From a virus: 24,084 bases of DNA. The notes under the pieces were generated by a model that had not been told where the DNA came from, ran no database searches, and saw only the letters and a program-made list of their open reading frames with translations. The stretch is from IMG/VR virus record IMGVR_UViG_3300010885_011661, positions 1 to 24,084 of that record. One strand, given 5' to 3'. Positions 3,112-23,992 of the stretch are shown one piece after another. How positions within the stretch are numbered: position 1 is the stretch's first letter; every line of letters begins with the position of its first letter. The translations under genes were made by a program, and so were the position numbers.

Positions 3112-3229
3112 TAATTTTTTATCTTGTTATGACATAGATACTAAACAATCAGAGTACTTCATCAAAGTGCTATATTCGGTTTATGAATATGTTAAACGAG
3201 TTGTACTCCGTAATCTGGTCAATTTATAA
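3104..3229 (+). CDS. Possible 41-aa protein
   Basis: ORF from ATG 3104 (inside the last codons of thyX, 8-base overlap) to TAA 3229. The product starts MSNNFLSCYDIDTKQSEYF and ends with a hydrophobic/basic helix (VYEYVKRVVLRNLVNL). There is only a weak ribosome-binding site (GGGGC at 3091-3095). The TATAAATA late-promoter-like box at 3225 overlaps its stop. It fills an otherwise empty gap and fits the overlap style of the region, but coding is uncertain. Confidence 0.35.
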   Translation: MSNNFLSCYDIDTKQSEYFIKVLYSVYEYVKRVVLRNLVNL

Positions 3230-5519: not shown

Positions 5520-5698
5520 AACAATATGTAGATATTACCACTCTTCGTTATGATGAAGAAAATGACGAGTACTATATAGTATCTAATCTGTTTGAAAAGG
5601 CTGGATTTAAAGAAGGTGATACGTTAAATTGGTCAGATAACGGTGATGGTTCTTGGTCTTTAACTAAAATAAAAGAGGAAAATAATAAAAATGATTAA
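5516..5698 (+). CDS. 60-aa AbrB-like small protein
   Basis: Small protein overlapping the dehydratase stop (ATGA, 5516-5519) and the nrdA start (5691). The core FEKAGFKEGDTLNWSDNGDG followed by SWSLTK resembles the swapped-hairpin AbrB/MazE fold (LLEKAGIKEGD... pattern), which usually binds DNA as a dimer. A similar size and position next to nrdA would suit a phage regulator, but no target or toxin gene is visible. The acidic N-terminal half (YDEENDEYYIV) is unlike a classic AbrB. Fold resemblance only; function unknown. Confidence 0.6.
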   Translation: MKQYVDITTLRYDEENDEYYIVSNLFEKAGFKEGDTLNWSDNGDGSWSLTKIKEENNKND

Positions 5699-7964
5699 TG
5701 TCGTCAAGAGAGATGGACAAAAAGAACCACTCAATATTGATAAGATCCATAAGGTAATAGAGTGGGCTTGTGAAAATCTTTCTAACGTATCTGTTAGTGA
5801 AGTAGAACTTGCATCAAGAATTCAGTTTTATGACAAAATTAAATCTACAGATATACATGAGACTTTAATTAAAGCTGCCTCTGAACTTATTACTGAAGAA
5901 ACTCCTAACTATCAGTATGTGGCTGGTCGGTTGATCAACTATAACCTCCGTAAGGAAGTGTATGGTAAGTATGAGCCAAACAGTCTATCTGCACACTATT
6001 TCTATGTTAAGAACGAAGGATATTATGACGAAGCATTAGTTGATGCTTACACTGATGAAGAGTGGAAAGAACTTGATCGTTACATCGATCACGACCGTGA
6101 CAATCTGCTGACATATGCAGCTATGGAACAGTTTCGGGGTAAGTACTTAATCAAGAACCGTGTTACTGGTCAGTTCTACGAAACACCTCAGATGGCTTTC
6201 ATGTTGATTGCCATGACACTATTTCAGAACTACAAGAAAGATCGAATCAAGTGGGTAAAGGAGCTATACGATGCAATCAGTACTTTTGATATTTCTCTTC
6301 CTACTCCAATTATGGCTGGAGTTCGCTCTCCTCAACGTCAGTTTAGCTCGTGTGTTCTTATCGAGACTGATGACTCTCTTGATTCCATCAACGCTACTGC
6401 ATCGAGTATTATAAAATATGTTTCACAAAAAGCAGGTATTGGTATTGGTGGCGGTTCTATTAGGGCTATTGGATCTCCTATACGGAATGGTGATGCTAGT
6501 CACACTGGTGTTATTCCTTTTTGGAAACATTTTCAGACTGCTGTCAAATCTTGTAGCCAAGGTGGTGTCAGAGGTGGAGCGGCGACACTCTATTACCCCC
6601 TATGGCATTACGAAGTGGAAGATCTTCTTGTCCTAAAGAACAATAAGGGAACAGAAGACAACCGCATTCGTCACCTAGATTATGGTGTGCAATTCAATAA
6701 GGTTATGTATGAAAGACTTCTTTCTGGAGGCAATATCACCCTCTTTTCACCTCATGATTGCCCGGATCTCTACGACGCATTCTTTCGAGATGTTGATGCG
6801 TTCCGTACACTCTATGAGAAATATGAGCGAAATACCAAAATCAGAAAAAAGACCATCGCTGCAATTGATCTCTTCTCAATCTTTATGCAAGAAAGAAAGG
6901 ATACCGGAAGAATCTATCTGATGAATGTCGATCATGTTAATGATCACGGTTCGTTTGATAAGAAGAAGGCATTGATTAAGATAAGTAACCTCTGTACAGA
7001 GATTACGCTTCCAACCTCTCCTCTAAAGGATATTAATGATGAAAATGCAGAAATATCTCTCTGTACGCTTTCGGCGATCAATATCGGAAAGATTAAAAAG
7101 CCAGATGATTTCGAAAAGCCATGCACCCTTGCGGTACGCGCTCTGGATGCCCTATTGGATTATCAGGACTATCCTGTTAGAGCCGCTGCTATTGGTACTC
7201 GCAATCGCCGTCCTTTGGGCATCGGTATTATTAATTTTGCTTATTGGCTGGCTCGTAATGACACTAATTATTCTAATCCAAACCTTGATCTTATTCATGA
7301 ATATGTTGAAGCATGGAGTTATTATCTTATCAAGGCTTCGGTAGACTTAGCTGAAGAATTCGGACCTTGCCCTAAGCATACAGATACTCTTTACTCCAGT
7401 GGAGTAATGCCTATTGATACATATAAGAAGGAAGTAGACGAACTTGTAAGTCCAACTTACAAGATGGATTGGGATAGTCTAGCATTGAAAGCTAGTGTAC
7501 ATGGTATTCGTAACTCTACATTAATGGCTCTAATGCCGTCTGAAACGAGCTCGCAGATCTCTAATTCTACTAATGGCATCGAGCCTCCACGTAGTCTTGT
7601 TTCTATCAAGCAGTCAAAGGATGGTGTACTTAAGCAGGTTGTTCCTGGTATAAGTCGTCTAAAGAATAAATATGAATTGCTATGGGATCAGAAGTCTCCG
7701 GAAGGTTATCTAAAGATTATGGCTGTTCTACAGAAATTTATTGATCAGGCCATCTCTGTTAATACATCATATAATCCTGCTCATTATGAAGACGGAAAAA
7801 TTCCTATGTCTGAAATGATCGGGCATATATTAATGCATTATAAGTACGGTGGTAAAACTCTTTATTACTTCAATACTAATGATGGCGCCGGGGAACTAAA
7901 CCTAGATACTCCTTTATCGTCTGGTGAAGTTGATGAGACGGATTGCGATAGTTGTAAAATCTAA
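5691..7964 (+). CDS. nrdA: Ribonucleotide reductase alpha subunit (class Ia)
   Basis: Large catalytic subunit of aerobic ribonucleoside-diphosphate reductase; it reduces NDPs to dNDPs with NrdB. It has 757 residues against 761 for E. coli NrdA. An ATP-cone begins at the N-terminus (VVKRDGQKEPLNIDKIHKVI), so allosteric control of overall activity is likely. Active-site residues are visible: C221 and C458 (redox pair, in FSSCVL and SLCTLSA), N433-C435-E437 (in SNLCTEI, thiyl radical site), and MPSETSSQISNSTNGIEPPR near the phosphate site. The radical-path YY pair is in KTLYYFNT. The C-terminal shuttle cysteines are C752 and C755 (CDSCKI), the contact for the glutaredoxin encoded at 12586. GAGGA at 5675-5679 serves ATG 5691. 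Intact, unlike nrdB. Confidence 0.97.
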   Translation: MINVVKRDGQKEPLNIDKIHKVIEWACENLSNVSVSEVELASRIQFYDKIKSTDIHETLIKAASELITEETPNYQYVAGRLINYNLRKEVYGKYEPNSLSAHYFYVKNEGYYDEALVDAYTDEEWKELDRYIDHDRDNLLTYAAMEQFRGKYLIKNRVTGQFYETPQMAFMLIAMTLFQNYKKDRIKWVKELYDAISTFDISLPTPIMAGVRSPQRQFSSCVLIETDDSLDSINATASSIIKYVSQKAGIGIGGGSIRAIGSPIRNGDASHTGVIPFWKHFQTAVKSCSQGGVRGGAATLYYPLWHYEVEDLLVLKNNKGTEDNRIRHLDYGVQFNKVMYERLLSGGNITLFSPHDCPDLYDAFFRDVDAFRTLYEKYERNTKIRKKTIAAIDLFSIFMQERKDTGRIYLMNVDHVNDHGSFDKKKALIKISNLCTEITLPTSPLKDINDENAEISLCTLSAINIGKIKKPDDFEKPCTLAVRALDALLDYQDYPVRAAAIGTRNRRPLGIGIINFAYWLARNDTNYSNPNLDLIHEYVEAWSYYLIKASVDLAEEFGPCPKHTDTLYSSGVMPIDTYKKEVDELVSPTYKMDWDSLALKASVHGIRNSTLMALMPSETSSQISNSTNGIEPPRSLVSIKQSKDGVLKQVVPGISRLKNKYELLWDQKSPEGYLKIMAVLQKFIDQAISVNTSYNPAHYEDGKIPMSEMIGHILMHYKYGGKTLYYFNTNDGAGELNLDTPLSSGEVDETDCDSCKI

Positions 7965-8679: not shown

Positions 8680-8868
8680 ATGCCAGAATATATAAAAATT
8701 AATAGCGATATGTGGGAAGATGCAGGAACGACCTATAAAGTTATTGATTATTTTAGTCGAAAGCCTAGATCATCCGCTGTGGAACTTACACTAGAACATC
8801 CTAACGGGCAAGAAATACATAGAGTAGTACCATATCACTGGATCGAATGGATCCCAGACGGAGAATAA
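8680..8868 (+). CDS. 62-aa hypothetical protein
   Basis: Starts at ATG 8680 with AGGA eight bases upstream and ends at TAA 8866-8868, two bases before the nrdB start. The sequence ([20 protein letters not shown], then [14 protein letters not shown]) suggests a small beta-barrel-like fold with a Trp-rich C-terminal end. No known family recognised. Its last codons hold the GGAG used as ribosome-binding site by nrdB, so the two may be translationally coupled. Confidence 0.65.
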
Positions 8869-8870
8869 AC

Positions 8871-9425
8871 TTGTCAGTCTTTAATATAGATAATAAAAAA
8901 AATCATCTTAGCCGTAATTGTTTTTTCGAGGAACCTGTAGATGTTGCTCGTTATGACAAGGTACGGTATCCTACGTTTGAAAAGCTAACTGAGAAACAGT
9001 TGTCTTTTTTCTGGCGGCCTGAAGAGGTAGAACTATCACGAGATAGTAAAGATTTTAAAGGCTTAAACGATCATGAAAAACATATTTTTACGTCTAATCT
9101 CAAGCGTCAAATCCTTCTTGATAGTGTACAGGGTCGTGCTCCATCTTTGGCTTTTCTCCCTATATGTTCGCTTCCTGAATTGGAAACCTGGATCCAGACT
9201 TGGGCGTTTAGTGAAACAATTCACTCCCGCTCTTACACTCATATCATTCGCAACGTCTATTCTGACCCTTCCAGAGTCTTTGATGAGATGTTGGGGATCC
9301 AGGAAATAGCTGATTGTGCTGCTAGTATCAGTAAGTACTATGATGAGTTGATTGAATATACAAATTTAGTAAATACTCATGGATATGAGTCAGAAATTGA
9401 AATTATCCAAGAAGAAAAGGAGTAA
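8871..9425 (+). CDS. nrdB: NrdB N-terminal half (split small subunit, cistron a)
   Basis: First half of the class Ia ribonucleotide reductase small subunit, which holds the diiron-tyrosyl radical. Start chosen at TTG 8871 because CGGAG (8859-8863) is seven bases upstream. With that start the residues fall on the E. coli numbers: W48, iron ligands D84 (LLDSVQG), E115 and H118, radical Y122 ([12 protein letters not shown]). An in-frame ATG at 8847 lacks a ribosome-binding site. The frame ends after 184 residues at TAA 9423-9425, in the linker after YYDELIE, although E. coli NrdB continues for about 190 more. The remainder is encoded from ATG 9428 in the -1 frame. It lacks the other ligands (E204, E238, H241), so it cannot form a radical cofactor alone. 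Confidence 0.92.
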
Positions 9426-9430
9426 TAATG
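9416..9430 (+). promoter_or_regulatory. Restart site between the two nrdB cistrons
   Basis: AAAGGAG at 9416-9422 is a near-perfect ribosome-binding site five bases before ATG 9428. The upstream cistron stops at TAA 9423-9425 within TAATAATG. This geometry favours termination-reinitiation. The downstream frame is open only back to 9401, so a -1 slip at the AAG codon (9417-9419) could instead give a fused protein, but no classic slippery heptamer is present. Confidence 0.65.
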
Positions 9431-9530
9431 AAACACGTATTAACACAATATGAACATAAAAAGAGACTATGGTTGACACTAAATGCAGTTAATGCATTAG
9501 AAGGTGTTCGCTTCTACGTTTCGTTTGCAT
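9428..9530 (+). CDS. nrdB: NrdB C-terminal half (cistron b), exon 1
   Basis: ATG 9428 opens the second NrdB frame. It reads MKHVLTQYEHKKRLWL, then AVNALEGVRFYVSFA, which aligns with the E. coli helix ending VNALEAIRFYVSFA. Exon 1 ends at T9530, the first base of a Cys codon; the genomic frame would otherwise hit TAG at 9530-9532. After removal of 9531-10635 the exons join in frame (103 + 482 bases = 195 codons), restoring A-C-S-W-A-F-A-E, the NrdB segment that carries the iron ligand equivalent to E204. Spliced product: 194 residues. Confidence 0.9.
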
Positions 9531-9683
9531 AGACATATATGTGCAATTAAAATGCTGTTAATTGCTGGAAACTCCTTAGAGCCTACATGCTACAATATCA
9601 TGTAATATGATATGAATGCTTTAATAAGTTGTAGGATTGGACAATCAGCAGCTAACACTTTTGCTTGAAGATGGGTATTTTTT

Positions 9684-9691
9684 TATAAATA
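9684..9691 (+). promoter_or_regulatory. Late-type promoter inside the intron P6 loop
   Basis: TATAAATA, identical to the T4 late promoter box, 22 bases before the homing endonuclease ATG at 9714. In T4 the td intron nuclease I-TevI is likewise driven by a late promoter within the intron. CTATAT (9693-9698) can pair with ATATAG (9718-9723) across the TAGGAG ribosome-binding site and the ATG, and a transcript starting near 9697 would lose most of the first arm. Match seen; regulation inferred. Confidence 0.55.
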
Positions 9692-9713
9692 ACTATATAT
9701 TAGGAGATAAACT

Positions 9714-10568
9714 ATGACATATAGAAAGATTTATAAAAAACATCATGGCAGTATTCCTGTTGATGATACAGGAAGAACTTATGATATCCATCATATCGAC
9801 GGTGATAGAAAAAACAATGATATAAAAAATCTTGTTGCACTATCTATCGAAGACCACTATCTAATACACCTAGAACAAAATGATTATCAAGCCGCAGCCG
9901 CAATAAGAATGCGTTGGGATAAAGATATCGCTGAAATATCAAAACTAAATTCTATTGCAGCTAAAAAAAGAGTTTCGGGAGGTATTCATCATTGGCTAGG
10001 TGATGGTAGTTATCAGAGAGACCAACAAGAAAAGTTGAAATCTTCTGGTGATTATTATCAATATTCACAAATTCATAAAGATAACATTTCTCATAGAAAT
10101 AAAGAATATTCTTCACAAGGAATACATAATTTTCAGACTGAAGAATCAAGAAATGCAGTGTCAGAAAGAAACCGTAAAAATATTGAAGCGGGAATTCATC
10201 CCTTTTGTAAAGGAATCGGTGCGGAAAATAGTAGAAACCGTATTATTGACGGCACACATCATTTCTTGAATAGCGACATCCAACGTAACAACTCAATGAA
10301 AGCTAAATTAGTCAATTCAATTAGAGTAAAACGTATCGATGTTGCGACAAATGATGAAGTTATCTTTATTGGAATATCAGATGCAATTAAACATACTCCT
10401 AACACAAAACGAAGAAGTATACAAAAAGCATATGAAACAGGAAAAAAATATTGTGGATATATGTGGATATCTTTAGGCAAAGGTGGAAGTTCAACGACTA
10501 TCTCTTCGGAGAGTACTGATCAAGTGATCGGGAAACACAGCACACCTTTTGGTGATGATATAGTCTGA
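9714..10568 (+). CDS. HNH homing endonuclease in nrdB intron
   Basis: Intron-encoded nuclease of 284 residues that would cut intronless nrdB alleles and spread the intron. The HNH core is near the N-terminus (H26-H27 in YDIHHIDGDRKNN, N34-N35, N39, H48). Next come four short G-[IT]-H-x-[FW] units at 90, 136, 160 and 180, spaced like NUMOD3-type DNA-binding repeats, and then an IENR1-like domain at about 203-254 (IDVATNDEVIFIGISDAI... GYMWISL). TAGGAG lies seven bases before ATG 9714. Residues 255-284 are encoded by the ribozyme core (P6 3' strand to P7), and the TGA directly follows P7, so this tail is ribozyme sequence read as protein. Translation would disturb folding of the intron, so timing of expression matters. 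Confidence 0.9.
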   Translation: MTYRKIYKKHHGSIPVDDTGRTYDIHHIDGDRKNNDIKNLVALSIEDHYLIHLEQNDYQAAAAIRMRWDKDIAEISKLNSIAAKKRVSGGIHHWLGDGSYQRDQQEKLKSSGDYYQYSQIHKDNISHRNKEYSSQGIHNFQTEESRNAVSERNRKNIEAGIHPFCKGIGAENSRNRIIDGTHHFLNSDIQRNNSMKAKLVNSIRVKRIDVATNDEVIFIGISDAIKHTPNTKRRSIQKAYETGKKYCGYMWISLGKGGSSTTISSESTDQVIGKHSTPFGDDIV

Positions 10569-10635
10569 TCTTATGGGAAACTATAAGCAGGGTAAGACCC
10601 GGAAAAGAAATAACGAATCTTTTCGAACACATATG

Positions 10636-11117
10636 GTAGCTGGGCATTCGCGGAAGTCAAAAAGATGGAGGGCAACGCGAAGATTATCAAACTCATCGCC
10701 CGTGATGAGAATGTTCACCTCGCCTCAACTCAGCAGCTCCTCAAACTTCTACCGAAAGAAGATGCAGACTTTGCACGCATACAAGAAGAGACACGATCTG
10801 AGTGTATTGACATATTTTATAAAGTGGTCGAGCAAGAAAAGAACTGGGCACGTTATCTATTTAAAGATGGTTCGATGATCGGTCTAAACGAAAAGCTACT
10901 GTGCTCTTATGTAGAATGGATTGCGGATAAACGTATGAGAGCTATTGGTCTCGATTCTCAATATAAGGCGAGTAGTAATCCACTACCTTGGACACAACGC
11001 TGGATAGCTGGATCAGATGTACAAGTAGCACCACAAGAAACACAAATTTCATCTTACCTTACTGGTTCGGTTAAACAAGATGTTACACAAGATTCATTTA
11101 AAGGTTTTTCTTTATGA
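10636..11117 (+). CDS. nrdB: NrdB C-terminal half (cistron b), exon 2
   Basis: Second exon of the split small subunit. It opens with the last two bases of a Cys codon and reads SWAFAEVKKMEGNAKIIKL onward. In the spliced 194-residue protein the iron ligands are E41 (AFAE), E59 and H62 (ARDENVH), the equivalents of E. coli E204, E238 and H241. The segment DGSMIGLNEKLLCSYVEWI and the VQVAPQETQISSYL stretch near the C-terminus match NrdB closely. The end DSFKGFSL is the tail that docks on NrdA. Radical-site Tyr and the other three ligands are on cistron a, so both polypeptides must assemble. The stop overlaps the next gene by four bases (ATGA, 11114-11117). Confidence 0.95.
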
Positions 11118-11433: not shown

Positions 11434-11466
11434 ACTCCACTACTCTTTTTATTGTGGAGCGATATT

Positions 11467-11907
11467 TTGGCTTGGGTGTATAAAAATGAAGAGGTCCACG
11501 AGTTACCTGTGGATTGTGAAGCATTCGTGTATTTAATTACCAACAAAACAAATAATATGATGTATGTTGGTAAAAAACTAGCAAAGTTTAAAACTACAAA
11601 ACCGCCTCTTAAGGGTAAAAAGAATAAAAGAAGATCTACTAAAGAAAGCGATTGGCAAGATTACTGGGGGTCTAGTGAACGTCTTAAAGCAGATGTTGAT
11701 CTACTAGGCCCCGAAAACTTTATTAGAGAGATCTTGCATTTTTGTCCAAGTAGAGGTATTGCGAGCTATCTAGAAGCAAAAGTGCAATTCGAACGCCGTG
11801 TTCTAGAGACAGATAATTATTATAATGGTATTATTAATGTGCGTATAGGAGGATCTAATATCCTCAAAGAATATTTAAAAACATTAAACGATAAAGGAAT
11901 CCCATGA
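11467..11907 (+). CDS. GIY-YIG family nuclease, likely free-standing homing endonuclease
   Basis: About 146 residues with a GIY-YIG-like N-terminal domain: FVYLITNKTNNMMYVGKK takes the place of the GIY and YIG strands, followed by a basic patch (KGKKNKRRSTKESD), YWGSS, and FIREILHFCPS ahead of ASYLEAK, where the Glu of the catalytic core usually lies. Phage Seg-type endonucleases have this plan. Start: TTG 11467 is seven bases after GGAG (11456-11459); a TTG at 11452 lacks a ribosome-binding site. With no intron around it, it would be a free-standing element. It lies 350 bases after nrdB exon 2, so together with the HNH gene two mobile nucleases flank that exon. A host-DNA-degrading role is also possible. 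Confidence 0.7.
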   Translation: MAWVYKNEEVHELPVDCEAFVYLITNKTNNMMYVGKKLAKFKTTKPPLKGKKNKRRSTKESDWQDYWGSSERLKADVDLLGPENFIREILHFCPSRGIASYLEAKVQFERRVLETDNYYNGIINVRIGGSNILKEYLKTLNDKGIP

Positions 11908-11908
11908 G

Positions 11909-12304
11909 TTGTCCCAGGTACTTGAACATAAGCATTTAATTGTACGTGCTGAACTAAACAATCCTCCTAAATGTACAACAGCTATTAATCTATGGATGAA
12001 GAGTCTCATCGAACAAATCGGTATGAAGATTCTCATGGGTCCGTATTCAGTATATTCTGAAATGGTAGGCAATCAAGGATTGACAGCAGTCACTATAATT
12101 GAAACGAGTCACATTAGCGTCCATGTTTGGGATGAGTGTGAACCTGCCTTAATGCAGATGGATGTTTATACCTGTTCTACGCTCAATATTCAAGATGTAT
12201 TTGCAGCTATTGAATCTTTTGAACCATCTAAAGTAGAATACACCTACTTAGATAGAGAGCGAGGCTTGACTTTATTGGATAAAGGTGCTAAATATAATAA
12301 TTAA
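11909..12304 (+). CDS. speD: SpeD-like pyruvoyl-dependent decarboxylase
   Basis: Member of the S-adenosylmethionine decarboxylase (SpeD) family, which self-cleaves to make a pyruvoyl cofactor and feeds aminopropyl groups into spermidine synthesis. The 131 residues match the bacterial class 1B length. S67 (in ETSHIS) is the expected cleavage serine, H72 (SVHVWDE) and C89 (DVYTCS) the processing and catalytic residues. The residue just before the serine is Thr66, where Glu is usual. Start TTG 11909: the ATG at 11904 reads a 12-codon dead end. AAAGG at 11893-11897 is 11 bases upstream. Some phage SpeD relatives are reported to decarboxylate ornithine or arginine instead of AdoMet, so the substrate is open. 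No spermidine synthase is in the window. Confidence 0.8.
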   Translation: MSQVLEHKHLIVRAELNNPPKCTTAINLWMKSLIEQIGMKILMGPYSVYSEMVGNQGLTAVTIIETSHISVHVWDECEPALMQMDVYTCSTLNIQDVFAAIESFEPSKVEYTYLDRERGLTLLDKGAKYNN

Positions 12305-12831: not shown

Positions 12832-13072
12832 GCAAGAACTTATCAATCAGCTACGTCAACATACAGCTGATATTACTTTTACAAAAAAAGACGGTACCAA
12901 GCGGATTATGAAGTGTACGCTTGACGAAGCTGTCACTATAGTCTATGAAAAGAAAACAGACCGTACTCGTGAACCCATTGATAATATTCTACCCGTATGG
13001 GATTTAGAAGCAGGTGCGTGGCGTTCTGTTAATATTGATACCATTGAGGATATAAAATTTTATGTCATTTAA
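12821..13072 (+). CDS. Small phage protein with SH3-like beta fold
   Basis: 83 residues from TTG 12821, a start chosen because the upstream in-frame codons lie within the glutaredoxin gene; AGAG at 12813-12816 is a weak ribosome-binding site. The sequence ITFTKKDGTKRIMKCTLDEA, then ILPVWDLEAGAWRSVNIDTI, matches a common T4-like small protein pattern (KKDG...R..KCTL, then VWD...WR), probably a small beta barrel. Function unknown. A longer version from 12770 is possible but lies within the glutaredoxin gene. It overlaps the glycosyltransferase start by 11 bases. Confidence 0.65.
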   Translation: MPSKQELINQLRQHTADITFTKKDGTKRIMKCTLDEAVTIVYEKKTDRTREPIDNILPVWDLEAGAWRSVNIDTIEDIKFYVI

Positions 13073-14057
13073 GCGTAATGAACAGAACGCTAAATCTCAG
13101 GGTGGATCAGAATTGATGGCTGAACGTTTGTTCAGTTATCTGCCCACAGAGCTTACAGATCAATTTCAATTCACATTATCGCGTGTGCGGGAGCTAGAAG
13201 AAGACAAATATCGTATCTATTGGGTGCATGATTTGCCGTGGGATCCGGAACTACAACATCTAAAAGAATCTTCCTCCATCGCACGTTTCCATAAGATTGT
13301 TTTTTGTGGTAATTGGCAATACAATCAATTTCAGAATGTTCTAAATATTCCCTTCTCTCCTGATATTAGTGTTATTAATACAGGAATTATACCTCTTCAA
13401 CCTATTGCTAAAGATATCAATACTATCAGACTCATTTATACATCTACACCTCAACGCGGTCTAGAGATTCTAATACCTGTATTCGAAGAACTGTGCAAGC
13501 ATTTCCCTAATATACATTTAGACGTATTCTCTTCGTTTAAGATCTATGGCTGGGAACAACGAGACGCGGATTACGAAATTCTATACGACCGATGTCGCAA
13601 TCATCCTAATATCACATACCATGGTTTCCAGTCTAACGATGTAGTGCGTTCCTATGTAGAAAAAGCACACATCCTAGCATATCCATCTATTTGGATGGAA
13701 TGTAATTCTCAGTCTATTGCTGAAGCGATGTCTGGGGGTGCTATGGTAGTGGCACCTAATTATGGAGGTATCGTAGAAGGTACTGGTAACTTAGCAATGA
13801 CATATACTTTCTTGGAAGATAAGAATGCACATGCTAATCTTTTTTTTCAGATGATGGTACATGCTATACGCACAGTTAATACAGAAGAAATGCAAAATTA
13901 TCTACAGTTAGTTAAGATGTATGCAGATCATCGATACCATATCAACAACATCTCTAAGATCTGGGAAAATTTACTTGAATCTGTAGTTGCAACTGCGCCC
14001 TCTAAATCACTAGCACCTATACGCGCAACAAGTAATTACTTTGAGTACAAGCCATGA
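13062..14057 (+). CDS. GT-B glycosyltransferase (GT4-like)
   Basis: 331 residues, first gene of the sugar cluster. It begins NEQNAKSQGGSELMAERLF, the loop at the start of many GT4 enzymes. YTSTPQRGLEIL opens the donor domain and SIWMECNSQSIAEAMSGG with VVAPNYGG holds the donor motif E-x7-E (E in MECNSQSIAE). The HDLPWDPELQ segment is part of the acceptor side. GAGGA at 13046-13050 is 11 bases before ATG 13062. It overlaps the following HAD gene by four bases, consistent with one operon for making and using one sugar donor. The donor could be the heptose from the genes at 14054-16884, but that is inferred from position only. Confidence 0.8.
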   Translation: MSFKRNEQNAKSQGGSELMAERLFSYLPTELTDQFQFTLSRVRELEEDKYRIYWVHDLPWDPELQHLKESSSIARFHKIVFCGNWQYNQFQNVLNIPFSPDISVINTGIIPLQPIAKDINTIRLIYTSTPQRGLEILIPVFEELCKHFPNIHLDVFSSFKIYGWEQRDADYEILYDRCRNHPNITYHGFQSNDVVRSYVEKAHILAYPSIWMECNSQSIAEAMSGGAMVVAPNYGGIVEGTGNLAMTYTFLEDKNAHANLFFQMMVHAIRTVNTEEMQNYLQLVKMYADHRYHINNISKIWENLLESVVATAPSKSLAPIRATSNYFEYKP

Positions 14058-14380
14058 TTTATATTGTCGATATAGACAATACTATTTGCGATACTTATAT
14101 GGTTGACGGCAAATGGGACTATGAAAACTCGATACCTAATCTAGATCGTATCTCTAAAATAAATTCTCTGTTCGATGAAGGCCATACTATTAATTACTGG
14201 ACAGCACGAGGTTCTGGGTCTGGTTTAGACTGGTCTGAGCTCACTAAACAGCAACTAGATTCATGGGGATGTAAGTATCATGAAATTAGACTCGGAAAGC
14301 CATCCTACGATATCTGGATTGACGACAAAGCATTCAACGACAAACACTTCTTTGACTCCGATGGAAAATTGCCAATATGA
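14054..14380 (+). CDS. HAD phosphatase, capsule-biosynthesis type
   Basis: 108-residue HAD-fold protein without a cap domain. Motif I is D6-I-D8-N-T10 (IYIVDIDNTICDT), motif II T50 (YWTARG), motif III K82 (GKPSYD) and motif IV D90-D91 (WIDDKAFND). The size and TARGSGSGLDW stretch resemble the EcbF/BcbF capsule-biosynthesis phosphatases. In a cluster with a GmhA-like isomerase and an HddA-like kinase, it is a candidate to dephosphorylate heptose 1,7-bisphosphate, the step done by GmhB in bacteria. It is shorter than GmhB and lacks its zinc loop, so this is an inference from context. Overlaps both neighbours by four bases. Confidence 0.75.
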   Translation: MIYIVDIDNTICDTYMVDGKWDYENSIPNLDRISKINSLFDEGHTINYWTARGSGSGLDWSELTKQQLDSWGCKYHEIRLGKPSYDIWIDDKAFNDKHFFDSDGKLPI

Positions 14381-15345
14381 AAGTACTAGTGACCGGTCAC
14401 AGAGGGTACATTGGATCCGTGATGGTAGAGATGATGAAAGAGCTTGGAATTTTCTGTACTGGAGTTGATAATAACTATACACATACATCTATTGATCTCT
14501 TAACAGATTTATATATGAGTGTGAGTGTTAGTGAGTTACAACTGGCACAGATGGTTGTAAAAGAGGAAATTACACATATCTTTCACTTTGCAGCCTCTGC
14601 TGCTATTGCTGATTCAGTTACTAACCCAGCTCTTTATTACTGGAATAATATCGGGGAAACAGCTAAGCTGCTAGGTAATCTTCATGGTCTGGGCTGGAAG
14701 GGTAAATTTATCTTCTCTTCTACCGCTGCTGTCTATGGAGAAGACGGCTACCAGGCATATGAACATCAAGAGAAATCTCCTTGTAATCCGTATGGGCATT
14801 CTAAGTTAATGTGTGAGCAGGCTATCGAGGATATTTGTTCGAAAGCAGGAATTGATTGCGTTATTTTTCGTTACTTTAATGTAGCTGGCGCACATAGTAA
14901 AACCGGGGATCACTTAGATTCGGATCATATTCTTCCTAAGATCTGTTCTGCAATTTATGATAAGAAATGCTTTACGATAAACGGGAATGGGTACCAAACA
15001 AAGGATGGTACTTGTATTCGTGATTATGTGCATGTTCTAGATATTTGCCGCGCCCACTTACATGCTTCTGAATATTTAGAAACTAATCCTGGCATACATA
15101 CCTTTAATCTAGGATCCGGAGAAGGTTTTACTAATAAAGAAATAGTAGAAGCTTTTCAAAAGTATACAGGTGAAGAGCTTGAATACGTATACGGACCTAT
15201 GAGACCTGGTGATCCACCAGCGTTAATCGCTAACAACGATAAGTTTATCAGTAGGACTGGGTTTGAATATATACATACCGATCTTGAAAAAATTGTAACA
15301 TCCTCCTGGGAATGGTATAAAAAGTTTAGAACAAGGAATTTGTAA
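14377..15345 (+). CDS. galE: UDP-glucose 4-epimerase-like SDR protein
   Basis: 322-residue NAD-dependent epimerase with the GalE plan. G7-x2-G10-x2-G13 (TGHRGYIGS) binds NAD, FSSTAAVYG carries the catalytic Ser/Thr, and Y139-x3-K143 (PYGHSKLM) is the SDR pair. FRYFNVAGAH and the CIRDYVHVLDICRAHL region are highly typical of UDP-glucose 4-epimerase. It interconverts NDP-glucose and NDP-galactose or the GlcNAc/GalNAc pair; substrate specificity is open. The ATG overlaps the HAD stop by four bases, and its stop shares one base with the kinase ATG (TAATG). Confidence 0.87.
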   Translation: MKVLVTGHRGYIGSVMVEMMKELGIFCTGVDNNYTHTSIDLLTDLYMSVSVSELQLAQMVVKEEITHIFHFAASAAIADSVTNPALYYWNNIGETAKLLGNLHGLGWKGKFIFSSTAAVYGEDGYQAYEHQEKSPCNPYGHSKLMCEQAIEDICSKAGIDCVIFRYFNVAGAHSKTGDHLDSDHILPKICSAIYDKKCFTINGNGYQTKDGTCIRDYVHVLDICRAHLHASEYLETNPGIHTFNLGSGEGFTNKEIVEAFQKYTGEELEYVYGPMRPGDPPALIANNDKFISRTGFEYIHTDLEKIVTSSWEWYKKFRTRNL

Positions 15346-16283
15346 TGATTTTGGCAAAAGCTCCCATGCGAGTTTCCTTTTTCGGTGGTGGATCTGATAT
15401 CCCCGCACACTATATGAAATGGGGAGGTTCTACAATTTCAATGGCAATAGACAAATACGTCTATGTTACAGTAAATCATACTCCGCATGATCATATCAAA
15501 ATCTCGTATATGAAGCAAGAGCTTGTATACCATATTGACAATATCAAAAACGATATTGTACGTAATGCTCTATTATACTTTGGTATTGATAGTAATATCG
15601 AAATCACATCATTCGCTGATATTCCTACAATGGGGACCGGTCTTGGCGGATCCTCATCATTTACTTGCGCTCTTGTAGCTGCTCTTGCTGAATATAAAGA
15701 GCTTGAATATAATCCTTTTCAGATTGCAGAAACAGCTTGCTATATTGAAATTAATATGTGTGACTGGCATATCGGCAAGCAAGATCAGTACGCGGCCGCG
15801 ATGGGTGGTATGAATTATATCAAATATAGTATTGAGGATCACATTTCTGTGACAAGAATGGATTCCGGTCAGATTGAGTATTCCATGGTTCTTATACCCA
15901 CCAATATTCAACGACATGCAGCGGAGATACTTGATAATATTGACTTTAAATCCCGCCAGTTTGTAATACGCGAGTTGTCGTTGCTTGCCGATCTACATTG
16001 CAAAGATATACCTGAAGTAGAAGATTACGGTAAATTACTCAACCTTGCCTGGAATCTTAAGAAACAAATGGATGCGGGTATCTCTAATAATGCAATTGAT
16101 AATATGTATGATAGGTGCCTTGCTAACGGTGCTTTTGGTGCTAAGCTATTAGGTGCTGGCGGCGGCGGGTTTATGCTTGCATTAACTCGTGATAAAGATA
16201 AACTGAAAGAATCATTTTCAGACCGAGTGTGTCTAGATGTAAGAATTGCACAAGAAGGAGCTAAAGTTGTCTACAGAGACTGA
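15345..16283 (+). CDS. hddA: GHMP kinase, HddA-like (heptose 7-phosphate kinase)
   Basis: 312-residue GHMP-family sugar kinase. APMRVSFFGGGSDIP at the N-terminus, GTGLGGSSSFTCAL (ATP loop, motif 2) and KLLGAGGGGFMLAL (motif 3) are all present, along with GKQDQYAAAMGG, which is typical of the D-glycero-D-manno-heptose 7-phosphate 1-kinases (HddA) and related fucose kinases. In that pathway it converts heptose 7-phosphate to the 1,7-bisphosphate, after GmhA and before a phosphatase and a nucleotidyltransferase. It overlaps the GmhA-like gene by 17 bases. Heptose specificity is supported by the neighbour, not by any residue I can point to. Confidence 0.85.
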   Translation: MILAKAPMRVSFFGGGSDIPAHYMKWGGSTISMAIDKYVYVTVNHTPHDHIKISYMKQELVYHIDNIKNDIVRNALLYFGIDSNIEITSFADIPTMGTGLGGSSSFTCALVAALAEYKELEYNPFQIAETACYIEINMCDWHIGKQDQYAAAMGGMNYIKYSIEDHISVTRMDSGQIEYSMVLIPTNIQRHAAEILDNIDFKSRQFVIRELSLLADLHCKDIPEVEDYGKLLNLAWNLKKQMDAGISNNAIDNMYDRCLANGAFGAKLLGAGGGGFMLALTRDKDKLKESFSDRVCLDVRIAQEGAKVVYRD

Positions 16284-16884
16284 TTATACATTGGATAAGA
16301 TTTATATTCAACATACTAAGGCTATAGTACATGGCCTAGAGTCTATTGATCCATATAATTTTCAAAAGGCTGCTGATATTATCTGCGAAGCTATTAAGAC
16401 TCGTAGAAACATCTATACTATTGGCAACGGCGCATCGGCTGCTATTGCTCAGCACTGGGCTTGTGATTATACTAAAGGATGTTCTAATCTAAAACCCGAA
16501 GAGGGAAAGTTTCTTAAAGTAAGAGTACACTCTCTCGCAGCTAACATTCCTCTGATGACAGCTATTTCTAATGACGTGTCATACGATGAAGTTTATGCTT
16601 ATCAGATTGAACGTCTAGGGGCGCCAGGGGATGTATTGATCACTATTAGTAGCTCTGGCAATTCTCCTAACGTTGTTAGGGCTATCGAAGCCGCTATCGA
16701 AGAGAAGATGCATGTTATCACACTCACTGGATTCGAAGGAGGTAAGTCTAAGATAATGGCAGAAGAATACCTACATGGAGTTAATGTCCATGTAGATTGT
16801 CCAGAGTATGAAGCCACTGAAGATGTCCATCAGGCAATAATGCACATGATTGCAAAATATATTCGTCAGAAATTTTGGGCTTGA
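16267..16884 (+). CDS. gmhA: Phosphoheptose isomerase, GmhA-like
   Basis: SIS-domain isomerase, 205 residues, likely making D-glycero-D-manno-heptose 7-phosphate from sedoheptulose 7-phosphate. TTG 16267 is chosen because AAGGAG (16255-16260) is six bases upstream; an in-frame TTG at 16246 has no such site. The motif NIYTIGNGASAAIAQHWACD is the GmhA substrate loop, ISSSGNSPNVVRAIEAA is the SIS signature, and EYEATEDVHQAIMHMIAK is the C-terminal helix with the catalytic Glu/His pair of the family. It overlaps the kinase stop by 17 bases. With the kinase at 15345 and the phosphatase at 14054 it gives three of the four steps to a nucleotide-activated heptose; no nucleotidyltransferase is seen. 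Confidence 0.87.
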   Translation: MSTETDYTLDKIYIQHTKAIVHGLESIDPYNFQKAADIICEAIKTRRNIYTIGNGASAAIAQHWACDYTKGCSNLKPEEGKFLKVRVHSLAANIPLMTAISNDVSYDEVYAYQIERLGAPGDVLITISSSGNSPNVVRAIEAAIEEKMHVITLTGFEGGKSKIMAEEYLHGVNVHVDCPEYEATEDVHQAIMHMIAKYIRQKFWA

Positions 16885-16909
16885 CATTTTTAAAAAAACC
16901 TGGTACTGT
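16881..16909 (+). promoter_or_regulatory. Sigma70-type promoter with extended -10
   Basis: TTGACA at 16881-16886, a 17-base spacer, and TACTGT at 16904-16909 preceded by TG at 16901-16902, the extended -10 TGN pattern. It overlaps the last codons of gmhA and precedes the 361-residue gene at 16940 by about 30 bases. AGATATAG follows the -10, like other promoters here. A good candidate for the start of the replication block transcript. Confidence 0.7.
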
Positions 16910-16939
16910 AAGATATAGTGTGGAGAAAACGAGGAACAC

Positions 16940-18025
16940 ATGGCTATTTCGGTTAAGATTAAAACGAAGCCTAAGCAGATTACACGGTCCAAAATTAAAT
17001 CTATTGACGATAAGTATATGGGTCCCGAACCCATTCAGGTTTCTGACATTTCAGTTGCCCTGAACTGGTATAATTACATGCACGATAATGAGCAGGCTAA
17101 GGTCTGGATTATCGATTACATGAAGAAACAGGGTTACTCAAAACAAGATATCTCTGCATATCGACGAGCACCTAAGTATGCCACTATTAATACTGTAGGG
17201 TGGTTGTCTCGTATTCTTGCCAATGGCAATACACTAACAGATAAAAACTTTGAATTTATGAAGAGCCGCATTGCAACTATGATTGCTGCTGGAGGTAAAG
17301 AAGAGACTTCAGAGGCAGAGCCTGATAAGACTGTTGTGGACATTCAGGCTCGTGTGCAGGCTAAGATTAAGCAACTAATTACTGACTGCGAAGAAGCTGT
17401 GGACAAGGATCCGCAACTAAACATCTATGAGTGGCTTACTGGTAAGGAAGCGTCTATACAGGCTGCTAATGTACTTCGTGATTACTATGCCAAGTGTGCA
17501 GGGGACCACGAGCCGGACGAGTTTGATACTCGCGTTGAAAAGAAAAATCGGATAGAACTCAAGAAGTATTGGGAGGATTTTGTTCTTCTAATTGATCGAT
17601 ACTGCGGTAACAAGAAGGTTACTAAGGTACGTAAGCCGCGTGAAAAGAAAACAAAGTCTGCGGTTGATCTTATTAAGAATCTGAAGTATCAAAAGGACTA
17701 CGGTGCATTAAAGATTGTATCGGTAAACCCAGCAGAGATGGTGGGCTCTAGTCAGGTATGGACGTATAACACAAAGTATCGGAAATTAACTCGGTACGAT
17801 GCGGCTGGACCAAATGGAATCCAAGTCAAAGGTACTACTCTTGTTGGTTTTGATATAGAGAAGTCCTCCACTAAGAGTGTACGGAAACCCGAAGTTACTG
17901 TACCTGCACTACTGGGTGCCGGGCGTGTAGCCTTGCGAAAGTTCCTAGAAGAAATTAAAACTAATGATACTAAGCCTAACGGTCGGATAAATAATGATAC
18001 AATTATTTTGAGGATTGTTAAATGA
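16940..18025 (+). CDS. 361-aa conserved phage protein of unknown function
   Basis: A long protein with no recognised catalytic motif. It is basic and has an N-terminal helical half (DISVALNWYNYMHDNEQAKV, then YSKQDISAYRRAPKYATI), a central acidic/helical part, a very basic linker (KVRKPREKKTKSAVDLIKNL), and a C-terminal beta-rich part (VWTYNTKYRKLTRYD, then FDIEKSSTKSVRKPE). A basic linker between two domains suggests nucleic-acid binding. It begins a block read from its own promoter (16881) with a strong RBS (GAGGA, 16930-16934). I have a general memory of similar proteins in other T4-like phages but cannot name one. Overlaps the next gene by four bases. Confidence 0.8.
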   Translation: MAISVKIKTKPKQITRSKIKSIDDKYMGPEPIQVSDISVALNWYNYMHDNEQAKVWIIDYMKKQGYSKQDISAYRRAPKYATINTVGWLSRILANGNTLTDKNFEFMKSRIATMIAAGGKEETSEAEPDKTVVDIQARVQAKIKQLITDCEEAVDKDPQLNIYEWLTGKEASIQAANVLRDYYAKCAGDHEPDEFDTRVEKKNRIELKKYWEDFVLLIDRYCGNKKVTKVRKPREKKTKSAVDLIKNLKYQKDYGALKIVSVNPAEMVGSSQVWTYNTKYRKLTRYDAAGPNGIQVKGTTLVGFDIEKSSTKSVRKPEVTVPALLGAGRVALRKFLEEIKTNDTKPNGRINNDTIILRIVK

Positions 18026-22989: not shown

Positions 22990-23943
22990 ATGCCTAATAC
23001 TAAAAAAATTGCCGCATTATGTATGGTTCGTAATGAATCTGATATTATAGAGTTATTTTTAAAAATAAACTCCAGATCATTTGATGAATTTTTTATTCTA
23101 GATCACCTGAGTTCTGATACTACACCAGTAATTATAAATGAGTTACAAAAGACTGGTTTAAAAATTAATTATGTCAGATTGACAGATGGCGCATATATTC
23201 AATCCGAGTATACTACTGCTGCTGTGCGTAAAATTGCAATGTTAAATCAATTTGATTATATATTTCCAATCGATGCTGATGAATTTATCTCTTTTGATAA
23301 TAGCAATTCCTTATACGAAATAATTGCTAATTCGATTAATATCTATGAAACCGCAGTAGTTCCGTGGGTAACATATTGCCCTGTATCTGCGGATTATTTT
23401 AACAGACGTGCACCTTTATACGAAAATTTTAGAAAGAGAAGAGTAGAGCCTGAACAATATTATAAAGTGATTCTCGGTAATGAGTATGCAAAAAATTGTA
23501 TCATTAGACAAGGCAATCACTCTGCATCGAACGACAATATACCCGTCGACAATATACCCACCTGCGGACAGAAAATTCTTTCTATAGAACTTAATCATGT
23601 TCCAGTTCGTAGCGCAGAACAAATTATTCGCAAAGCAATTATAGGGAGTTACGCTGTTGCTCTGAAGAAAAACCGAGAACCTAGGGAATCTTTTCACTGG
23701 GATCTATTGGCAAGAGAGGTACGAGAAAAAAACTATCTACTGAATGGCGATGATCTTCTGAAAATTGCTATGCAATACAGTGTGCGTCCAGAGTATATGA
23801 TGTCAGACAACACCTTGGTAGACACAGGGCGGATAGGTCTAGAGGATGATGTGCTTGAGTATCCTGACCTAGCTAGGATCGATCTGTTAAAAACTTTTGA
23901 TTCTTTTATTTCAGAAGTGGTTTATCGAACACATAAATCTTGA
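22990..23943 (+). CDS. Family 2-type glycosyltransferase
   Basis: 317-residue GT-A enzyme. The start AALCMVRNESDIIELFL is the typical first strand of a GT2 domain, FILDHLSSDTTPVI follows, and IFPIDADEFI places the DxD (D95-A-D97) that binds metal and nucleotide sugar. IELNHVPVRS is the second conserved segment. ATG 22990 has AAAAGGA eight bases upstream; an in-frame ATG at 22927 lies inside mazG. A 12-base unit, GACAATATACCC, occurs twice at 23533 and 23548 (15-base period), duplicating DNIPx. Last gene before the terminator. Donor and acceptor unknown. Confidence 0.85.
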   Translation: MPNTKKIAALCMVRNESDIIELFLKINSRSFDEFFILDHLSSDTTPVIINELQKTGLKINYVRLTDGAYIQSEYTTAAVRKIAMLNQFDYIFPIDADEFISFDNSNSLYEIIANSINIYETAVVPWVTYCPVSADYFNRRAPLYENFRKRRVEPEQYYKVILGNEYAKNCIIRQGNHSASNDNIPVDNIPTCGQKILSIELNHVPVRSAEQIIRKAIIGSYAVALKKNREPRESFHWDLLAREVREKNYLLNGDDLLKIAMQYSVRPEYMMSDNTLVDTGRIGLEDDVLEYPDLARIDLLKTFDSFISEVVYRTHKS

Positions 23944-23961
23944 TACTCTTCTCTTTAAAAT

Positions 23962-23992
23962 AAAAAGCCGGCTTTCGAGTCGGCTTTTTTTT
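23962..23992 (+). terminator. Rho-independent terminator with UUCG loop
   Basis: A perfect-looking hairpin: GCCGGCU (23967-23973), loop UUCG (23974-23977), AGUCGGC (23978-23984), flanked by five A and followed by eight U (23985-23992), which extends the stem by A-U pairs. It begins 18 bases after the GT2 stop and ends the 22307 transcript. The A-run on the left could also make it work on the opposite strand. Confidence 0.92.

Follow-up and report, generated by a model that had tools for sequence, protein, structure and literature searches.

An intron at the T4 nrdB site with an I-TevIII-family endonuclease gene, very probably a mosaic variant of the T4 element, in the second nrdB cistron of an IMG/VR virus

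Self-splicing of the T4 nrdB intron is established. This intron interrupts the Cys codon in F-A-C after its T, with GT in the next exon (TTTTGCGT, then 598 nt, then GTACC), and the nrdB intron of T4 and RB3, together with the endonuclease I-TevIII, is the described system closest to the locus reported here. T4 expresses its three intron endonucleases from middle or late promoters (PMC2988022), and in collaborative homing a free-standing endonuclease and an intron without an ORF converge on one site (PMC3984707). Moreover, one chain of a ribonucleotide reductase (RNR) in two polypeptides has counterparts in the split phage genes nrdA of Aeh1 (with mobE), nrdJ of phiYS40 and, as deposited, nrdB of Bp7. 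In the present study, a 24,084-base virus fragment from IMG/VR (the window, meaning the whole stretch of DNA that was analysed) was found to carry an element that shares with the T4/RB3 intron and I-TevIII the nucleotide site, the IA2 architecture (P7.1, P7.2, P9, P9.1 and P9.2) and the HNH_3 family. When compared with the T4 intron, the element of the window differs in a core that appears to be of another lineage, in an extended P5 arm, in its P3 and in a host gene that is apparently split; its length is 1105 nt, as against the 598 nt of T4 and ~1096 nt in HY03.

Intron borders and insertion site

In the window, nrdB lies downstream of nrdA and is read as two cistrons, with the intron inside cistron 2; the predicted NrdB is ~40% identical to that of T4. 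The features of this region are as follows.

5691-7964: nrdA, upstream of nrdB
8871-9425, + strand: nrdB cistron 1, N-terminal part (Pfam Ribonuc_red_sm, E 9e-22; phmmer alignment to E. coli R2)
9417-9422, + strand: Shine-Dalgarno sequence AAGGAG for cistron 2, 5 nt before its ATG
9428-9530, + strand: nrdB cistron 2, exon 1, with the E204 equivalent (exon joining; E. coli R2 alignment)
9531-10635, + strand: group I intron, IA2-type, 1105 nt (Rfam match, helix pairing, T4 comparison, folding)
10636-11117, + strand: nrdB cistron 2, exon 2, with the E238 and H241 equivalents and the C terminus (Pfam Ribonuc_red_sm, E 4.5e-20; E. coli R2 alignment)

The 5' exon ends at 9530 with GTT TCG TTT GCA T, the intron extends from AGACATATATGTGCAA to CGAACACATATG at 10635, and the 3' exon starts at 10636 with GTAGCTGGG (GT AGC TGG). 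A U.G pair stands at the 5' splice site within P1, and the terminal base of the intron is G. When cistron 2 was read unspliced, a stop was encountered directly behind FA; when the intron was excised, an open cistron of 194 aa was obtained, reading F-A-C-S-W-A-F-A-E. In ~80 IMG/VR relatives, which are 76-81% identical over this part, the splice point is read through uninterrupted. The exact splice sites, the pairing of guide and exon, the final G and the in-frame A-C-S-W-A-F-A-E described in a first-pass annotation of this DNA were all confirmed, and the uninterrupted exons of the relatives agree with them.

The phmmer alignment to E. coli R2 placed the intron within the codon of Cys214 (E. coli numbering), between T and GT. 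The metal ligand Glu204 is represented by the E in NALE and precedes the intron by ten codons, and the Glu of FAFAE corresponds to residue 220, which is not a ligand; the earlier placement of the intron four codons before the E204 motif was thus wrong. When the site was compared with that of the T4 nrdB intron, as the annotation had proposed, the two were identical to the nucleotide, in the same codon and the same phase. The insertion nucleotide is also the same in HY03, S16 (where the 3' intron border was missed by our pattern), Bp7 and Klebsiella phage EI. Neither the intron nor the nrdB split occurred in any of ~150 environmental relatives, all with empty sites, a set drawn from two scans in which many loci share contigs. 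A pattern scan of IMG/VR for other introns at the nrdB site returned five chance matches, none of them in nrdB.

The ribozyme

The helices of the intron, all on the + strand, were drawn as listed below.

9525-9530 / 9541-9546: P1, exon UUGCAU with guide GUGCAA (pairing; also recovered by free folding)
9553-9558 / 10537-10542: P3, UGCUGU with ACAGCA (pairing; four double changes relative to T4)
9562-9568 / 9645-9651: P4, enclosing P5 and the extended P5a/P5b arm (pairing; folding)
9582-9587 / 9630-9635: P5 arm, with P5b at 9595-9601 / 9607-9613 (pairing; folding)
9652-9664: 5' strand of P6/P6a (pairing; T4 comparison)
10496-10501 / 10560-10565: P7, with P7.1, P7.2, P3' and P8 between its strands, 10496-10565 in all (pairing; T4 comparison)
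10570-10624: P9, P9.1 and P9.2 hairpins (pairing; T4 comparison; folding)

All drawn helices (P1, P3 to P9.2, P7.1 and P7.2) pair, including every one that the annotation had considered drawable (P1, P3, P4, a P5 arm and P6-P9), and the conserved group I core of P3, P4, P6, P7 and P8 is present with its P, Q, R and S elements. In P6/P6a, CACUUUUGC (9656-9664) pairs at nine positions with GCAAAGGUG (10477-10485), ~810 nt away across an ORF. Both P7.1, CUC(UUCG)GAG, and P7.2, CUGAUC(AAGU)GAUCGG, lie between P7 and P3'; these are the two hairpins previously noted as typical of IA introns, and their presence there is the feature of subgroup IA2. Unconstrained folding of the two halves recovered P1, P4, the P5 arm, P7.2, P8, P9, P9.1 and P9.2, with z-scores of -1.9 and -2.4. 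When 12 helices were compared with those of the T4 nrdB intron, all 60 of 60 pairs held (31 identical, 6 changed on one side, 23 changed on both, none broken), a result that is partly by construction because both structures were drawn by hand. Nonetheless, two sequences only ~59% alike would not be expected to show 23 double changes if they lacked structure.

A covariance-model search, also proposed earlier, was carried out. It found a match to RF00028 at 10424-10587 (26.5 bits, E 2e-4 to 4e-3) and a weak second match at 9563-9681 (12 bits), but the main match falls below the curated cut-off of 50 bits, which is a database threshold and not a biological feature. In the same search, the nrdB introns of T4 (35.7 bits) and HY03 (35.6 bits) also scored below 50. 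Since the proven T4 intron misses the cut-off too, this threshold does not discriminate for nrdB introns that bear an ORF, and it was rejected as a judge of the intron; the low scores are due to the ORF within P6, which interrupts the match. These data, with the anatomy and the exact site read directly from the nucleotide sequence, support the first-pass annotation, according to which nrdB is split and its second cistron contains, at 9531-10635, a complete IA-type group I intron.

The endonuclease gene and the two-cistron host gene

Two features lie in the loop between the halves of the ribozyme, and the second extends into the catalytic core.

9684-9691, + strand: TATAAATA, a T4-type late promoter octamer by its sequence, 22 nt before the HNH start codon (putative function)
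9714-10568, + strand: HNH homing endonuclease ORF of the I-TevIII family, 284 aa (Pfam HNH_3, E 3e-10; PHROG 12324; tblastn; tree)

Residues 1-197 of the product of this ORF, which the first-pass annotation had left out, match PHROG 12324 ('intron-like DNA endonuclease', E 6e-37) and contain the HNH_3 domain and GTHHFL-type repeats, with the HNH motif residues intact in the alignment. The best matches in phage collections were I-TevIII orthologues, RB3 among them, at 38-40% identity over 197 aa. In a tree of 69 rows the ORF grouped with I-TevIII, which was also nearest by path, with support of 97/64, the SH-aLRT of this clade being only 64. The protein belongs to the I-TevIII family of homing endonucleases, and it would be expected to cleave and to promote homing. 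The C terminus is of another kind. The CxxC zinc-finger module of I-TevIII and of most environmental kin listed is absent, and in its place stand residues 200-262, for which NCBIfam and Pfam searches returned no family; we take them to resemble IENR1/NUMOD1 modules. An AlphaFold model of the ORF product was uninformative (pLDDT 31). The final ~30 codons are a read-through of P6', P7, P7.1, P7.2, P3', P8 and P7', whereas ORFs of the T4 family end at UAG in the 5' strand of P7. Because the ORF crosses the catalytic core, its translation could compete with folding.

When relatives were sought with the HNH sequence of the window alone, none was found; an alignment-led scan of IMG/VR brought out a large HNH_3 family. 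This little-described family (L177-L256) of environmental phages has GTHHFLGGE repeats and a terminal zinc finger, and two of its loci (L179 and L180) lie on contigs of nrdB relatives (L128 and L130, respectively).

The octamer TATAAATA occurs four times in the window (at 3225, 9684, 18373 and 21616), always on the + strand and 22-36 nt 5' of an ORF start, the three copies outside the intron being 24-36 nt away. It is not enriched overall (4 copies, 4.0 expected), and permuted octamers land in such positions 21% of the time. The same octamer lies upstream of the ORF in the T4/RB3 nrdB intron as well. Its placement suggests T4-type late transcription in this virus and late expression of the endonuclease. 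A T4-like hairpin masking the ribosome-binding site before the ORF was not significant in folding (z -0.3).

The host gene itself appears to be divided. Cistron 1 probably starts at TTG 8871 (an in-frame ATG lies upstream at 8847) and ends at 9423-9425, and the ATG of cistron 2 is at 9428. When aligned with E. coli R2, the equivalents of the ligands D84, E115 and H118 and of Tyr122 fell in cistron 1, that of E204 in exon 1, and those of E238 and H241 in exon 2. All six metal ligands and the radical tyrosine of a class Ia RNR small subunit are kept across the pieces, and, given that the ligands are spread over all of them, a working enzyme would need both cistrons as well as splicing. In common with the cases of Aeh1, phiYS40 and Bp7, one RNR chain would be made as two polypeptides; the window differs from these in that the break lies in the variable loop of nrdB before helix NALE, with a gap that holds no endonuclease gene.

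Several features of the junction would also suit an error of assembly or sequencing, or else programmed -1 frameshifting, with no true fission of the gene and with the intron unaffected. The reading frames of the two cistrons differ by -1, an AAAA run stands where they meet, no stop interrupts the -1 frame across the join, and one extra base in the AAAA run would fuse them. The break falls in a loop, flanked by YYDELI and HKK, that is of different length in different relatives; the relatives are unsplit, and a pattern scan for a second contig of the virus with the same junction found none. On the other hand, the start codon of cistron 2 sits 5 nt behind AAGGAG, and AGGAG at that distance was found before just 3 of 574 other + strand ATGs (0.5%), a background that favours a true start; the other long genes of the contig, moreover, are unbroken. 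We therefore consider an error or a frameshift unlikely. Apparent frame breaks in other loci (L019, L023 and similar) proved to be matches into upstream sequence and not split genes. The first-pass annotation had called a split gene with an intron in its second cistron unusual. The combination is indeed rare but not unparalleled, since the nrdB of phage Bp7 was deposited in three pieces around the same nrdB intron. In that record (L163 2181-2857) the pieces are annotated as nrdB, nrdB' and nrdB'' around the I-TevIII intron, and either the gene is truly split a second time there or the record contains a sequencing error.

Other genes of the window were also noted. A free-standing SegE-type GIY-YIG endonuclease gene lies directly 3' of nrdB at 11452-11904 (Pfam SegE_GIY-YIG, E 9e-31); PHROG 447, which matches it, carries the label 'NAD synthetase', probably a mislabel. 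An S-adenosylmethionine decarboxylase-like gene is found at 11909-12304 (PHROG 3125, E 1.6e-13), and sugar-epimerase, GHMP-kinase-like and SIS-domain genes, named by eye, stand in tandem at 13062-17000, perhaps as a phage cassette for surface sugars or nucleotide sugars. A match to Rfam AaHKsRNA41 at 23887-23992 (26.7 bits, cut-off 97) ends with a strong GC hairpin and a U run and is most likely an ordinary transcription terminator.

Origin of the element

When the two halves of the intron were searched by blastn, the 5' half matched introns of the unrelated phages phiKp_21, phiR1-37, PBS1, Twort and KIL1, and the 3' half matched introns of BpSp, DSS3_VP1 and nepoznato, core matches reaching an E value of 8e-10; the T4 nrdB intron was matched only in islands of 20-22 nt. 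Core identity was 71% with BpSp, 66% with KIL1, 65% with Twort and 59% with T4 nrdB. The IA2 introns of BpSp, KIL1 (RNR beta gene) and Twort (RNR gene) are thus nearest in the core and share the P5a arm and P7.1/P7.2, but they lie in other genes or at other positions, this comparison covering the ribozymes. In Pseudomonas phage KIL1 (L262 1838-3304), a small intron interrupts the RNR beta gene after ...SAIDED and not at the FAC codon, and on sequence comparison the ribozyme lineage of the window also enters RNR beta genes at other positions.

The same nucleotide site, an endonuclease of the same family that is closest to I-TevIII, and the same set of P9, P9.1 and P9.2 hairpins could all be accounted for by plain descent from a T4-type nrdB intron, whether vertical or by homing, with a core that merely diverged and a P5 arm lost in the T4 line. 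Yet the core is closer to that of BpSp than to that of T4, and the extended P5 arm is common to the window, phiKp_21, Twort, KIL1 and BpSp and lacking in T4. Moreover, a tree in which the window was forced together with the T4-site ribozymes was 13-16 log units worse, with p-AU values of 0.043 (all columns) and 0.008 (filled columns); that tree comprised 10 rows and 146-221 columns. Plain descent from the T4 type appears doubtful to us on these grounds. The evidence for a split in lineage is moderate, because the comparison rows other than T4 were chosen by their likeness to the window, and it suggests that the ribozyme core belongs to a lineage other than that of the T4-site nrdB introns. An inactive relic that does not splice, with NrdB lost or supplied by the host, would be in keeping with a gene also split upstream and an ORF that crosses the core; we regard it as highly improbable, given that the core helices, guide, terminal G, exon frame, metal ligands and HNH motif residues are all intact.

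Taken together, these data suggest, with a probability of about 0.88, that a mobile IA2 intron in the second nrdB cistron is self-splicing and carries an I-TevIII-family homing endonuclease, a late promoter and a mosaic of ribozyme and C-terminal module. The group I intron itself is real and very probably still active and mobile, and we view it as a mosaic variant of the nrdB/I-TevIII element of T4. The intron would remove itself from the mRNA of cistron 2, and a class Ia small subunit would be assembled from two polypeptides, the second translated from the spliced message. The endonuclease would be a late product, translated from transcripts for which splicing is not required, and it would cleave, close to the codon of Cys214, those nrdB alleles that lack the intron, whereupon double-strand-break repair would copy the intron into the cut allele. 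By its sequence, the element combines a site and an endonuclease akin to those of T4 with a ribozyme core that appears to be of another lineage and a different C-terminal module of the endonuclease. The same site, a kindred endonuclease and a different ribozyme are consistent with one ribozyme having replaced another at a common homing site, and the simplest reading is that ribozymes were swapped at an endonuclease-defined site, as in collaborative homing. Through that process, a single endonuclease family could retain a site at which the ribozymes differ; in the window a free-standing partner was not seen, and the composite end state alone is present. We would give even odds to the fuller account in which one endonuclease family held the nrdB site while a ribozyme from an unrelated IA2 lineage was acquired and the DNA-binding end was swapped, an endonuclease-led assembly of an intron in a host gene of two polypeptides.

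The T4 nrdB intron site is now extended to environmental phages far from the T-evens. The element may provide a testable case in which a site and its endonuclease can outlive the ribozyme, and a NrdB of two chains, the second of them encoded by an intron-bearing cistron, would be a test case for split class Ia reductases.
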